DNA from: a virus
Reading direction: 5' to 3' (one strand)
Length of the DNA stretch: 29,368 bases
Virus record (IMG/VR): IMGVR_UViG_3300025645_000329
Coordinates: 1-29,368 of that record
Under the pieces are notes generated by a model, which was not told the DNA's origin, ran no database searches, and saw only the letters and a program-made list of their open reading frames with translations. A program made the position numbers and the translations under genes. Shown here in pieces: positions 15,276-22,223 of this stretch (the stretch's first letter is position 1; each line of letters opens with the position of its first letter).

Positions 15276-18200
15276 ATGGCTGAAGATAAAAAAACTTTTC
15301 TCCAGGGTAAAATGAACAAAGATATTGACTCTAGGCTTTTACCAAACGGAGAGTATCGCAGCGCGCAGAACATACAAGTAACAACTTCAGATCAAAAAGA
15401 CGTAGGAGCTATTACAAACTTAAAAGGCAATACTAAAATTGTGAATCAAAGTTCTACTTTTATAAATGATTTTTTTGTCAATGATTTAAGTTATTTTAAT
15501 GGTCTAGAAACAATAGGATGTTTTTTTGATGAAAAAAATAACAGAATATTTTATTTTGTTACAAACTACACGTGTCCAAATACGTTTAGACAGGGACTAG
15601 TTGGCGACAGCGATGGTCCTACTATGGCTATTGACTCTGGATTAAGCAATTTACACTGCGCAATATACATGCATGACATAGTTAGTATTTCTAACTCTTC
15701 TATTGTAAAGCTAGTAGATGGTTTATTTTTAAATTTTAGTAAAAATAAAATTATAACGGGTGTTAATTTATTAGACAACTTATTGTTTTTTACAGATAAT
15801 TTAAATCAACCTAGAAAAATAAATATAGAAAAAGCTATTCAAGATTCTAATTTTTACAATTCTGAAGACAAAATAAGTGTGGCTAAGTTTGCTCCTTTTA
15901 TGCCGCCATTACTTCTTGACTACAATACAACTACTTTTAATAGTAACGTGCCTACTACTACAGAGCCAACTTCTTCAATGCAAGACTCTTCTCAAAACAA
16001 TTTTCCTACAGATTATTTAAAAGAAAAGTTTGTTAGATTTTCTTACAGATTTAAATATAATGATGGCGAATATTCTACAATAGCGCCATTTACTCAAATA
16101 TGCTTTATACCTAGAACAACCAGCTATAGTGTAACAAACACTCAAAAAATATTTAAAACAGGAGCTGTTTACTATCAAGATGATAACGGAGATGGCGATG
16201 GTATGGTTAATAATGTTACTGGTGTTAATTTAAATATTATACTTCCTTCACATACTCCTAATAAAGATTTTGAAATATCTACAGTTGAAATATTGTATAA
16301 AGAATCTGACAACAGCTTAGTTAGATCTGTTGAAGAAATAATTATTGAAGACTCTAGTATTACAGACGGTGTTTTACAATATTTATATAAATCAACACTA
16401 CCTTATAAAACACTTCCAAAGGGTCAACTAGTAAGAGTGTATGACAATGTACCATTAGCTGCACTAGCTCAAGAAGTTGTTGGCAATAGGATAGTTTATG
16501 GTAATTTTATTCAAGACAGGGCTTTGCCAGCCAAAAAAAACAAAGTTGCAGGTTTAGATTTTAGCGTTGGATTAAGCGCTAAATATGATATTACAAACGA
16601 TGTGGGTAATGCGGATTTTAATAATTACTACTTACATAAAGAATATCCATTTCACTCTGTAAAACAAAGAAGAACATATGAGGTAGGTGTAGTGTTGTCT
16701 GATAAGTTTGGAAGACAATCACCTGTTTTAACTTCTAACACAAGTTCTAGTTCTGTAGAAGTGCGAGCTAAATCAGCTAGCTTTCATAGCAGCTCTTGGT
16801 CTTCTACTGAAAACTTTATACACGACGCTTCTCCAGGTAACAAAGATTATTGCGGTGATGCTTTAACTATAACTTTTAACAGCGAAATACCAAACCCATA
16901 TTCTAAAAGAACTTTAATACCAATTAATCAAGCAGGTACTTCAACTTATCAGTTTCAGCTATTTAAGGCTAATTTTGGGACTGAAGTATTATTAACTGAT
17001 GGTAGTCCAGGAAACACTGGTGGCGTTATGATTAACAACTTGTATTTTTATGATGAGTTTTCATCAGCTCAAGGTGTTATTGGTGATTATTTTTATACTA
17101 GCTCTACACTAAGCGAAAGCTCTATAGTTACAGGATATAGCGCTTTATACTTAAATACTGGAGCTACTGATTTATATACTAATTCTTATGCTATTAATAA
17201 GTTTAATTTAAATTCAGAAACTGGAGAGATATTAAGTCATGAATATGTTTCTCAAAGTTTTTTATTTATTGATAATGTTGTACATATAAATCAACCTATT
17301 TTAATTGCTAATCAAGGCGAAGAATTTTATCTTGCAGGTGTTCAAGTTGTTACGCCTGAGCAAACAATTTTTAACCACCCTCAGCTAGGTGAAGTTTTTA
17401 AGTTAACTATAACAAACTTTACCCAACCAGACTTATTTTCCGTGGGTGACTATTTAAAAGGTCAAACAAAAGATTTTGTTAAGATACTAGAAGTAACAAC
17501 TGAAAATGGAATTTTTATTATATTTTGTGATGACAAACCAAGTTTAGAGTATTTAAACAGTGGCGTAGATAATTATAACTTTAATAAATACAAAATAGTA
17601 CCACATGGATGGTATTCTTATAGAGTTGTAGTAAAACAAGTAGAGCAAGAATATCATAACGTTTACGTGCCTAGTGTTATAACTATAGACAAAGATGATG
17701 AAGGTCACAAAAGTTATATTCCTATTGTTGCTGATAATATAAATAAAATTACAAGAGATATTGAGTTTTCTAATATACAAGAAACTGGATTAAGTACAAG
17801 TAAAGCTCAAATATATCCTAAAATACTTCCTTTAACATCTGCAACTACAATAGCTGGATTAACAGCTAATTTATCAAGATCTATACAAAGCGATAAAGAT
17901 TTAATAGATGTTATTAGTATTGGTACAGCTAGAGAGCAAGATTTAAAAGATGAAGAAAATAATGTTTTAGCCTTTATATATGAAACAAATAAAAACCCTT
18001 TAGTTGCGCAAATACCATACGGTAATAGCTCTTTAAATATAGGTCAAGATATTACTTCTGACTTTGAAGGTATTGAATATACTTTTACAGGCGTTGGCGA
18101 TGGACAAAACGCGTCTGAAGGTCTTAGTGGAAATACTAAATTAAATTTACCAGGAACAGATATTGCTGTTTTTACAGGAGGTACTAATGTTGTTACTATT

Positions 18201-20393
18201 GGTGATTACTTGTCTGGTAAAAACACTAATTTAGTTAAAATAGAATCTATTAGTGGAGATGGCACTCAAACTTTAATTTCATGTGATGGCGAAATAAGTG
18301 ATATATACTTTGACGCAGAAGGTACAACTGGAAATAAAATATACAAAAATAAATACGGTTTGCAAAACAGAATATCTGTTTTTGAAACAAAACCATTTGA
18401 GTCTGCTTTAGATATATACTACGAAACTTCAACTGCTGGCTATATACATGAGTTAAACGAAGCCGTTACAATAATAACGGACATTTCAGAAGAAGACGTT
18501 ACTTTTATAGACACACAAGATTTTTCAGAAGACACTGTTTTTTATGATGAATTTGGAAACTTTCAAAATGTATTTGCGGGAACTCTTAATATATTAGACG
18601 AAAACGGAAACAACTTAACTCTTGGGAGTGAGCTTGGACAAGTAAATTCTGGAGGTGTAGAAATTATACAACAAGACGCAGTTGGACCTAATGAAACTAG
18701 CTCTTTATCATCAAACTTTGCTCAGGCTATAGGAGTAACGTCAAGTTCTGATTTTAGATTTATTATATTTGAAGATGAAAACACATCTACATTTAAACTA
18801 AAGCCAAAACCAGGTTTAGGTAATTTTGCTTATAGCCCTACTTTAGAACCTACTAAGTATATATTTAAAATAAGAATTACAGTTAATGGAGACGGCAATA
18901 ACGTGCCTGATGAAATTTTTATTATTGACAATGTTGAAATAAATTTACAAAACGTAGCGCCTGTAGTTTTAAGCTCCGGCAATATAGAAGCTCAACAAAA
19001 TAATGATGATATATTAGGAACTCCAATACATCAAATTATAGCAACTAATGGATCTGCAAACCAAGAAAATAATAGTTCAGGGCTTAGATTTAGATGTAAA
19101 GACTTACAAAGTCAATTTATTACTACTACAAATGGTTTAGAAGGTTCTGAAGCTATATTTGACTTAGACGGCGATTTAATTGAAGAATTAAGAATAGATA
19201 CTTCTACAGGTGAAATATTTTTAACAGATGCTTTTAATGAAGAAAGTTTAAACGTAAGCTTTGCTATAAGAATTACTGATGGTTCAGATTTTTTAAGCGA
19301 TGAAGATTTTCAAAGTGGAATAGACGAACACGGTGGTATTTTTGTTGATCACCAAATAGATTTAATAGTTAGTGACGGTCTTATTGTTTTATCCGCTCCG
19401 TCTAGTCATTCAGTCCCTTCAGCTGCGCCAGAAGATCTACCAGGAGGAATAAATATTTTTCAAAACGAAGGCGCAACTGATATTCTTACTTCTGATTCTA
19501 TGGAAACGGACAATCAAAGCAGAGGTGTTTCATACGGATCTTATTGGACAACCACGCCAAATGGACTGCAACAGACAAACTTAATAAACAATGAGAATAT
19601 ACTAAACAGTGCGCCCGAAGGATCAGGTTTAGCTTATGGGCCTATTGGAATATTTTTATGTAGTGAAACAGGTCGTATAGGAACATATGCTCCAGGTGGA
19701 AATAATACATTAGGAACAAAAATTTGGGCCTTAAGAGTTATAAACAACATCCCAGTTGTTGTTGTGTACTATAAAGAAGTAGGTATTGGCAACACCGGAA
19801 TGGTCACTAGACAATGGTTTAATCACCATCTTTATGACGGTTGGGGTTATATACGTTGTTCGGCAGGTACTGTGCAAATTAAAGGCACTGGTTCCAGCAG
19901 CCTTCCGTATACTAGTTCTTTTGGAGATATAGACGGCACTTTGTCGCCAAACCCAAGTTGTCCTGCTCACCCTGAACATGAAAACGTGTCGCAATTATAT
20001 GGAAACACCTCTACTTATGAACACGTAAACATGGAGCTTTTAAACGACAGCGGTTGGAGATTTAATGAGCCAGGCACGCATCCTATATACGGCTCAGCTA
20101 ACAGTAATGAATATGAAGGATCTTTTCCTTATTACAATAACGAAAATGAAATTGTAAACACAATATCTAAACCCGAAGATTCATTGAATTATTACCAAGG
20201 CTCACCAGCTCCACCTTTTTATCACTCAGGAGGTTTCTTAGGTAAATGCAATGATAATGTTGTAATAAACTCCGTAGAATATAAAATACTATATACATAC
20301 ACTACTGGCGGTAATTATATAGGTAATAGCAGTGGTTTCAACGAAACACGTTTATCTGTGCAGAAAGTCTTTTTGTGTAGAAAACAACAATAA
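15276..20393 (+). CDS. Muzzle / tail stabilisation protein, N-terminal part, with cadherin-like and unknown C-terminal domains
   Basis: A 1705-aa tail protein. The N-terminus (GKMNKDIDSRLLPNGEYRSA, then QNIQVTTSDQKDVGAITNL) and HGWYSYRVVVKQVEQEY with NVYVP (residues 777-797) are hallmarks of the muzzle/stabilisation protein of crAss-like and related phages, which forms the distal short-tail structure. Two similar beta inserts occur near 716-755 (VGDYLKGQTKDFVKI) and 974-1010 (IGDYLSGKNTNLVKI). Residues about 1090-1370 look like two cadherin-type domains (VEINLQNVAPVVLSS at 1219-1233, then STGEIFLT and FAIRITDGSDF). A Ser/Pro linker (about 1370-1390) leads to an unrecognised Gly/Asn/Tyr-rich C-terminal domain ending in LCRKQQ. 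The motifs expected in the second half of the muzzle are missing here and are found in the next gene. Confidence 0.78.
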   Translation: MAEDKKTFLQGKMNKDIDSRLLPNGEYRSAQNIQVTTSDQKDVGAITNLKGNTKIVNQSSTFINDFFVNDLSYFNGLETIGCFFDEKNNRIFYFVTNYTCPNTFRQGLVGDSDGPTMAIDSGLSNLHCAIYMHDIVSISNSSIVKLVDGLFLNFSKNKIITGVNLLDNLLFFTDNLNQPRKINIEKAIQDSNFYNSEDKISVAKFAPFMPPLLLDYNTTTFNSNVPTTTEPTSSMQDSSQNNFPTDYLKEKFVRFSYRFKYNDGEYSTIAPFTQICFIPRTTSYSVTNTQKIFKTGAVYYQDDNGDGDGMVNNVTGVNLNIILPSHTPNKDFEISTVEILYKESDNSLVRSVEEIIIEDSSITDGVLQYLYKSTLPYKTLPKGQLVRVYDNVPLAALAQEVVGNRIVYGNFIQDRALPAKKNKVAGLDFSVGLSAKYDITNDVGNADFNNYYLHKEYPFHSVKQRRTYEVGVVLSDKFGRQSPVLTSNTSSSSVEVRAKSASFHSSSWSSTENFIHDASPGNKDYCGDALTITFNSEIPNPYSKRTLIPINQAGTSTYQFQLFKANFGTEVLLTDGSPGNTGGVMINNLYFYDEFSSAQGVIGDYFYTSSTLSESSIVTGYSALYLNTGATDLYTNSYAINKFNLNSETGEILSHEYVSQSFLFIDNVVHINQPILIANQGEEFYLAGVQVVTPEQTIFNHPQLGEVFKLTITNFTQPDLFSVGDYLKGQTKDFVKILEVTTENGIFIIFCDDKPSLEYLNSGVDNYNFNKYKIVPHGWYSYRVVVKQVEQEYHNVYVPSVITIDKDDEGHKSYIPIVADNINKITRDIEFSNIQETGLSTSKAQIYPKILPLTSATTIAGLTANLSRSIQSDKDLIDVISIGTAREQDLKDEENNVLAFIYETNKNPLVAQIPYGNSSLNIGQDITSDFEGIEYTFTGVGDGQNASEGLSGNTKLNLPGTDIAVFTGGTNVVTIGDYLSGKNTNLVKIESISGDGTQTLISCDGEISDIYFDAEGTTGNKIYKNKYGLQNRISVFETKPFESALDIYYETSTAGYIHELNEAVTIITDISEEDVTFIDTQDFSEDTVFYDEFGNFQNVFAGTLNILDENGNNLTLGSELGQVNSGGVEIIQQDAVGPNETSSLSSNFAQAIGVTSSSDFRFIIFEDENTSTFKLKPKPGLGNFAYSPTLEPTKYIFKIRITVNGDGNNVPDEIFIIDNVEINLQNVAPVVLSSGNIEAQQNNDDILGTPIHQIIATNGSANQENNSSGLRFRCKDLQSQFITTTNGLEGSEAIFDLDGDLIEELRIDTSTGEIFLTDAFNEESLNVSFAIRITDGSDFLSDEDFQSGIDEHGGIFVDHQIDLIVSDGLIVLSAPSSHSVPSAAPEDLPGGINIFQNEGATDILTSDSMETDNQSRGVSYGSYWTTTPNGLQQTNLINNENILNSAPEGSGLAYGPIGIFLCSETGRIGTYAPGGNNTLGTKIWALRVINNIPVVVVYYKEVGIGNTGMVTRQWFNHHLYDGWGYIRCSAGTVQIKGTGSSSLPYTSSFGDIDGTLSPNPSCPAHPEHENVSQLYGNTSTYEHVNMELLNDSGWRFNEPGTHPIYGSANSNEYEGSFPYYNNENEIVNTISKPEDSLNYYQGSPAPPFYHSGGFLGKCNDNVVINSVEYKILYTYTTGGNYIGNSSGFNETRLSVQKVFLCRKQQ

Positions 20394-20411
20394 CAAGTAA
20401 TATATAAATAA

Positions 20412-22223
20412 ATGCCTTTAAGCTTAAAAATAAAATACTTTAACACCTTTATATTAAGAGAAGAGCCTTTTGTTACTACAAGCATAACAAGCTCAGTTTC
20501 GTCTACAGGCACACCACCTGTTTTAGGTGAAAGTAGTCAAATAGATTTAACAGATTCAAATCCTAATATATCTTTTGGTCAAAAAGTAAGTGGTCCTGGA
20601 ATACTTGACGATGTTACTGTTACCGCCGTTTCAGGTACTACAGTAACTATAAGTAAAGCTCAAAAAATAGAAAAAGGTTCAACTTTAACTTTTTCATCAG
20701 CTTCACCTTACCCAGACACTGGCGCTACTCAATTAGCTAACAATGAGTGGCATATAGAAGAGTCTAGAATAAAAGGCGAGTTTAATGGTAAAACAGTAGA
20801 CTTTGGAGCTAAAGCCTATGCCGTAGATAAAGAATACAATAGAAATCATAGAGAAAACGCTATGATATATTCTGGTATATATAACTCAAGAACAAGAGTA
20901 AATAATACTAATCAGTTTTCTATAGGAGAAAGTATTACAAAAGCTGTAGATAGAAACTATGGATCTATACAAAAACTTTATGCTGAAGATACAAATTTAA
21001 TTATATTTCAAGAAAATAAAGTTAACGGCGCTTTAATAGATAAAGACGCTATATTTACAGCAGAGGGTAGTGGTCTTAGCACTACAGCTAAAGTTGTAAT
21101 TGGTCAAATAACACCTTACGTAGGTGAATATGGTATTGGAACAAACCCTGAAAGCTTTGCTGTGTTTGGTTTTAGAAAATACTTTGTAGACAAAGATCAA
21201 GGATGTGTTTTAAGACTTTCTAGAGACGGTATTACTGATATATCATCATATGGTATGAGAACGTTTTTTAGAGAAAATTTAAAAAATACAACAAAAGCTT
21301 ATGGCATGTTTGACATACATTCAAAGTCTTACGTGTTAAGCTTAGATTTAGACAAACCTATACAGCAAAACAAACAAACTTTTATTAAATCTACAACAGC
21401 TGTAGCTAGTTCTAGCTCTAAAGGCAAAGAAATAAAAATAAAAGCTTTTAATCAAGAAATACAAAAAGGACAATATATAAATTGTAACGCAGTTAAAAAT
21501 AACTCTTTAAGAGTTGTTTCTGTTAAAAACAAAACAATAACAGTCAGCAAAAACGTTGGGATTTCTGAAGGTGAATCACTTAGTTTTATTGCTGTAAATG
21601 ATTTTGGTTTACAACCTATAGAAAGACTAACTAACTTTGTAACCATAGGCTTTGACGACAAAGTAAATGGTTGGACTAGTTTTTACACTTTTAATCCTAC
21701 TTTTGGAGGCAGTGTTCAAGGTGGTTTTTACACATTTAATAAAGGTAATTTATACAAGCATCATTCAAATATTTTAAAAAATACTTTTTATGAAGAGTTT
21801 GAGCCAAGTACAATTACACTAGTAAGTAATCAAAACCCTTCGTTGGTTAAACACTATAAAACAATAAACTACGAGGGCACAAACAACTGGAAAGTTATAG
21901 ACATGTTTTCACCTGCAGAAGATAATGAAAACTATAATGCGTATCAAATACCAGGTAATATAACTGGAAGATATTTTGACGAAACAAATTATGTTAAATA
22001 TGCTGGGTTTTGTCCTTTAGAAAAGAAATATTTTGCACATATTAAAATAAACGATACAAGCACTATAACAGGTATACAAGGTTTAACTACAACTGGTATT
22101 AAAGGGTTTTTTGCAGAAACAACTTTAGAACATGAACCTGTAACAAACGACGGAAGAACAGACAAAACTAAACATGCTGAATTATTTTCAGTAGGTTTTA
22201 ATTACGAACAATCTTTATATTAA
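20412..22223 (+). CDS. Muzzle / tail stabilisation protein, C-terminal part (separate gene)
   Basis: A 603-aa protein that carries the second half of the muzzle fold: KYFNTFILREE (about 8-18), HIEESRIKGEFNGKTVDFGA (114-133), MIYSGIYNSRTRVN, GSIQKLYAEDTNLIIFQENK, VIGQITPYVGEYGIGTNPES, FGFRKYFVDKDQGCVLRLSR, all typical propeller-blade motifs of that family. In relatives I know, these belong to the same polypeptide as the preceding N-terminal part. Here they start at a new ATG 18 bases after the previous stop, in the same reading frame and after a second in-frame TAA. Two paralogous small beta inserts interrupt it, near residues 50-97 (VSGTTVTISKAQKIEKGSTL) and 325-400 (VKNKTITVSKNVGISEGESL). 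The two proteins probably assemble together. Confidence 0.75.
   Translation: MPLSLKIKYFNTFILREEPFVTTSITSSVSSTGTPPVLGESSQIDLTDSNPNISFGQKVSGPGILDDVTVTAVSGTTVTISKAQKIEKGSTLTFSSASPYPDTGATQLANNEWHIEESRIKGEFNGKTVDFGAKAYAVDKEYNRNHRENAMIYSGIYNSRTRVNNTNQFSIGESITKAVDRNYGSIQKLYAEDTNLIIFQENKVNGALIDKDAIFTAEGSGLSTTAKVVIGQITPYVGEYGIGTNPESFAVFGFRKYFVDKDQGCVLRLSRDGITDISSYGMRTFFRENLKNTTKAYGMFDIHSKSYVLSLDLDKPIQQNKQTFIKSTTAVASSSSKGKEIKIKAFNQEIQKGQYINCNAVKNNSLRVVSVKNKTITVSKNVGISEGESLSFIAVNDFGLQPIERLTNFVTIGFDDKVNGWTSFYTFNPTFGGSVQGGFYTFNKGNLYKHHSNILKNTFYEEFEPSTITLVSNQNPSLVKHYKTINYEGTNNWKVIDMFSPAEDNENYNAYQIPGNITGRYFDETNYVKYAGFCPLEKKYFAHIKINDTSTITGIQGLTTTGIKGFFAETTLEHEPVTNDGRTDKTKHAELFSVGFNYEQSLY

Follow-up and report, generated by a model that had tools for sequence, protein, structure and literature searches.

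The muzzle, a conserved core tail protein of crassviruses with a presumed role in gating ejection, is very probably made in this phage from two separately translated genes, MUZ-N and MUZ-C, which would have arisen by one or very few old fissions of a single-chain gene. The freed end of MUZ-N may serve as an adhesin, and MUZ-C appears to have a start and a leader of its own. The analyzed stretch, referred to as the window, is a linear IMG/VR virus record of 29,368 bases. Its tail module is similar to the one in crAss-like phages and comprises terminase, portal, and structural genes, MUZ-N, and MUZ-C. The following features, all on the plus strand, were delimited:

15276..20393, +: MUZ-N, an ORF of 1705 aa with stop codon TAA; matched to phrog_14478 (profile positions 2-357) and, by HHalign, to gp44
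18435..20390, +: C-terminal extension of MUZ-N, 652 aa, after the IYYETST-AGYIHELNEA motif; delimited by length and identity distributions
20391..20411, +: junction, consisting of the MUZ-N stop TAA (20391-20393) and 18 nt that end with an in-frame TAA (20409-20411)
20395..20411, +: putative MUZ-C leader AAGTAATATATAAATAA (consensus AAGTRATWATAAAAT-ATG), from comparison of MUZ-C upstream regions
20412..22223, +: MUZ-C, an ORF of 603 aa; assigned by Pfam PF25729, HHalign to gp44, and Foldseek
20412..20459, +: N-terminal signature strand of MUZ-C, MPLSLKIKYFNTFILR, from alignments; equivalent of KEIAYFNTFIL in the fused chains

Two halves of a crAss-type muzzle

The first-pass annotation had placed the N-terminal muzzle motifs in the 1705-aa gene and the C-terminal motifs in the 603-aa gene, and profile searches bore this out. 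Residues 5-435 of MUZ-N matched positions 2-357 of the phrog_14478 profile, while residues 115-335 of MUZ-C matched positions 919-1139. MUZ-C also contains the Pfam domain crAss_MUZ_C (PF25729, 32.4 bits at a cut-off of 27). Using HHalign, the two products aligned with opposite ends of the crAss001 muzzle protein gp44: MUZ-N residues 1-204 with gp44 residues 1-175 (E 1.3e-6), and MUZ-C residues 170-503 with gp44 residues 1039-1292 (E 8.4e-9). MUZ-N thus corresponds to the N-terminal half (the ring-joining part and the first part of the propeller, with a putative Ig/crass-like middle region) plus a C-terminal extension, and MUZ-C to the C-terminal half (the remaining propeller and the crAss_MUZ_C domain). 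PDB sequence searches with profiles gave no useful match.

An AlphaFold model of MUZ-C (63 sequences, pLDDT 72.6, low confidence at residues 130-186) was compared to known structures with Foldseek. The top PDB matches were 7QOL and 7QOK, the crAss001 muzzle (E approximately 1e-9; 1.1e-9 for 7QOL), and other podovirus nozzles ranked after them. A model of a fused relative (L109, approximately residues 216-1414) also matched 7QOK/7QOL (E 8.6e-12), but its confidence was low (pLDDT 58.5, pTM 0.36), too low for placing the break in three dimensions. Judged by these profile alignments and the predicted MUZ-C fold, MUZ-N and MUZ-C each represent one half of a muzzle of the crAss type, as had been proposed from the window sequence. 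Two similar-looking small inserts are present in MUZ-C (approximately residues 25-100 and 325-395; window positions 20472-20710 and 21380-21600). Both are absent from L010 and L011, and similar sequence is present in one fused chain.

The junction and its two in-frame stops

Re-reading of the sequence matched the junction exactly as first described: positions 20391-20414 read TAA CAA GTA ATA TAT AAA TAA ATG in a single frame, with the MUZ-C ATG (20412) immediately after the second TAA, so that both ORFs share one frame. This arrangement had suggested, as one of two options, that the two stops are occasionally read through or bypassed, with a suppressor tRNA or recoding giving a minor fused product of 2.3k residues. 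Apart from the shared frame, the giant single-chain muzzles of approximately 2.75k aa in some relatives (see below) would suit such a product. However, among 134 nonredundant split loci, MUZ-C was in frame 0, 1, or 2 relative to MUZ-N in 40, 41, and 53 cases, respectively. MUZ-C is thus in another frame at 94 loci, and the 40 in-frame junctions do not differ from the one-third expected (binomial p = 0.41). The same-frame junction in the window is no more than chance. The gap between the genes had a median of 29 nt and, once two loci with a broken MUZ-N are set aside, ranged from -1 to 855 nt; the genes overlap in three loci, and some gaps contain extra ORFs (see below). In L002 the junction contains three in-frame stops, and in L010 it reads TAA T ATG.

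A check for codon reassignment or a suppressor tRNA had also been suggested. TAA behaves as a normal stop, ending 525 of 589 neighboring genes (89%), and no tRNA genes were detected in the window or in the loci of 20 relatives, all of which are partial records. Moreover, MUZ-C starts at its own conserved position and occurs as a stand-alone family across the clade, an outcome that the first-pass annotation had named as refuting and that here applies to its read-through branch. We therefore regard read-through as very unlikely.

An assembly or sequencing error within one intact gene would likewise produce such stops, and private breaks inside conserved sequence do occur in L142, L196, L053, L082, and Maribacter phage Panino. 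For the window, this explanation is refuted by the relatives and carries almost no weight. The junction, including the intergenic sequence, recurs in L002, L003, and L008 from independent metagenomes, and the split is present in 134 nonredundant loci; a MUZ-N extension and a MUZ-C leader lie on either side of it.

Several further breaks were inspected. Panino, a candidate for a second split, turned out to have a muzzle gene in which the frame shifts by one base within a T5 run (CDS0075/0074; L012 around 6230), probably through error or decay, or possibly as a site of frameshifting. Internal MUZ-N breaks in L142, L196, L053, L082, L137, and L151 look private and are probably errors or decay; the sister loci that were checked (L183/L184, L044/L185, L203, and L172/L174/L150) are without such breaks.

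Split and fused muzzles among relatives, and a candidate adhesin

Among 215 sequences (the window and the collected loci, duplicates included), the muzzle was split in 167, fused in 37, and incomplete in 11. The searches were seeded with the window group, a single fused relative, phi38:1, and L087, so that these proportions are biased as estimates of frequency. When the loci were clustered at 90% identity of three upstream neighbors, the 134 split loci (Panino excluded) and 18 fused loci were left. In phi38:1, phi18:3, phi13:2, Gundel_1, the elemo phages, and the metagenomic genome ctfjg026, the chain is joined at the split site of the window. The expectation that crAss-like relatives have a single muzzle chain held for gp44 and for the Cellulophaga, Tenacibaculum, and Flavobacterium phages.

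In a tree of the three neighboring genes, the window fell inside a clade of 146 rows (134 split, 12 fused) that adjoins the isolates. The split state was at the base of this clade and fused lineages were nested in it at least two times; L087, a split row, sits among fused ones. Five changes were needed in total, one of them being the Panino frame change. The tree was a quick one, built without a mixture model and with long, poorly placed deep outgroup branches, and more weight was given to the nesting within the clade than to the root. This nesting could also mean that the split state is ancestral and that one-chain forms arose by repeated fusion. We consider this improbable: the outgroup isolates and crAss001 have one chain, which makes fission at the base of the clade simpler, and the uncertain placement of the deep branches also weighs against it. 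An old fission with few reversals is favored because gp44, the named Bacteroidota phages, and the 12 nested marine lineages all have one chain. By this comparison of gene sequences, the two-gene muzzle is old and has been stably maintained in a large group of marine phages. No description of it was found in the open-access literature searched, with most subscription papers outside this scope.

Other loci showed further variation. In L036, L044, L185, and L188, MUZ-N and MUZ-C are separated by one more ORF, 176-279 aa long. The IMG/VR contigs L204, L205, L206, L210, L212, and L213 encode single-chain muzzle proteins of approximately 2.75k residues; in L210 and L213 approximately 1000 residues are inserted inside the MUZ-C part, and in L204 approximately 1100 residues follow it. 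Related loci in MAG and genome contigs (L217-L232) mostly carry the label Flavobacteriales or that of another Bacteroidota group, which is consistent with hosts among the Bacteroidota.

Alignments located the cut. Fused relatives read ...DIYYESSTSGLIRDL-(10-20 residues)-KEIAYFNTFIL...VEESRIKG. Split MUZ-N proteins end with ...DIYYETSTAGYIHELNEA followed by the extension and the stop, and split MUZ-C proteins begin with M..SLKIKYFNTFIL...IEESRIKG. The MUZ-C start is conserved ("MAxxxEIKYFNSF"), and the same strand directly follows the 10-20 residue linker in the fused relatives. A Met is located exactly 8 residues before the YFN motif in 110 of 127 split MUZ-C genes. That the cut falls at one shared position suggests a single old event, or else selection for this position. 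In the alignment with gp44, the cut appears to fall at the tail tip, among the distal inserts, and its assignment to an exact domain is tentative.

A conserved leader, AAGTRATWATAAAAT-ATG, precedes many MUZ-C genes, mostly 15-16 nt upstream where present. Its strong form was found at 39% of 127 MUZ-C starts and at none of approximately 130 starts for each of five neighboring genes. When the collection was scanned, 50 of 53 ORF-preceding matches belonged to MUZ-C, among the matches listed, and the leader occurred 0-2 times per genome in 22 records. It initially seemed unique to MUZ-C, but it also precedes a holin gene in two genomes (L365 and L368). A role as a Shine-Dalgarno sequence was rejected, since SD-like 4-mers precede only 1.6% of MUZ-C starts. 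The leader is possibly a promoter-like or translation-start element, used as a phage expression signal.

A fibre-like domain set added at the split had been offered as one of two readings, and is seen as the 652-aa MUZ-N extension, which fused chains do not have. Across loci, the length of the extension had a median of approximately 430 aa and was 228-1120 aa in 130 of 132 measured loci. The other two, L068 and L092, are split with extensions of only 15-16 aa, so that the association between split and extension is not strict. Divergence is much faster in the extension than in the structural core: compared to most close relatives, the window was 57-90% identical at residues 1-485 and 11-33% at residues 1401-1690. 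L002 was 90% identical at residues 1-485 and 87% in MUZ-C but 29-33% at residues 1401-1690; the corresponding values for L003 were 78%, 79%, and 55-60%. Differences of this kind between regions suggest that the extension changes rapidly or is exchanged. Among the closest relatives, the VFLCRK motif at its end is kept.

We infer that the extension is a tail-tip receptor-binding adhesin, which may grip the host. It could instead have a structural role (in fibre docking, as a chaperone-like part, or as a segment that is cleaved) and vary simply through lack of constraint, a reading to which we give a smaller but appreciable chance. The extension of the window itself had no Pfam, PHROG, or PDB sequence match and thus no recognized receptor-binding domain, and two split relatives manage without an extension. 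On the other hand, its retention in 130 of 132 loci, its divergence relative to the core, and the held end motif do not fit a purely structural role well, and Pfam searches of 75 extensions detected Fib_succ_major in two and cadherin in one.

In the favored explanation, one old fission, or very few, would have cut the gene within the short linker that joins the IYYETST-HELN segment to the YFNSF strand. MUZ-N and MUZ-C would assemble into the hexameric propeller gate again with no covalent bond between them, MUZ-N would bear the variable putative adhesin on its freed C-terminus, and MUZ-C would be translated from its own start with the conserved leader. More speculatively, and in our view doubtfully, splitting may have let phages mount a hypervariable six-copy adhesin on the tail gate, with receptor binding and gate opening mechanically joined and the leader tuning MUZ-C expression to that of MUZ-N. 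The stable occurrence of a two-chain muzzle throughout a large marine group suggests that two polypeptides are able to form the propeller. The split would mark a tolerated cut site, and the extension is a candidate host-binding module on the gate itself. Close fused and split relatives (e.g., L104 and L087) offer a natural comparison.

Comparison with known systems

In crAss001, a single chain forms the muzzle, and its propeller contains inserted Ig and crass domains (PMC10172136). gp44 (7QOK/7QOL; PMC10172136) shares with the window homologous N- and C-terminal parts, probably a propeller with distal inserts, and a location of its gene next to a tail ring-protein gene. It differs in being one chain of 1371 aa, whereas in the window the muzzle is divided over two genes and an extension of 652 aa is present at the cut. 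T7-type nozzles (T7, P22, and SU10 tails in the PDB) resemble the MUZ-C propeller in fold according to Foldseek but, unlike the muzzle of the window, are, as is known for the family, smaller single chains without the crass fold (see also PMC10172136). Cellulophaga phage phi38:1, Tenacibaculum phage Gundel_1, and the Flavobacterium elemo phages (phrog_14478) have the gene order and both muzzle parts of the window, but as a single chain of 1324-1493 aa that lacks the MUZ-N extension.

The Baltivirus phages phi18:3 (gp114/gp115) and phi13:2 (gp120/gp121) resemble the window in that their muzzle is spread over two adjacent genes. Their cut is located elsewhere, after MUZ-C profile position ~383, and the site that is split in the window is still joined. 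Together with ctfjg026, in which another gene lies in between, they represent an independent second muzzle split (L013 3262-8829, L016 3262-8832, and L017 3022-9042). In phi18:3, gp114 and gp115 are both annotated from MS/MS, which provides a precedent for two muzzle chains per virion.
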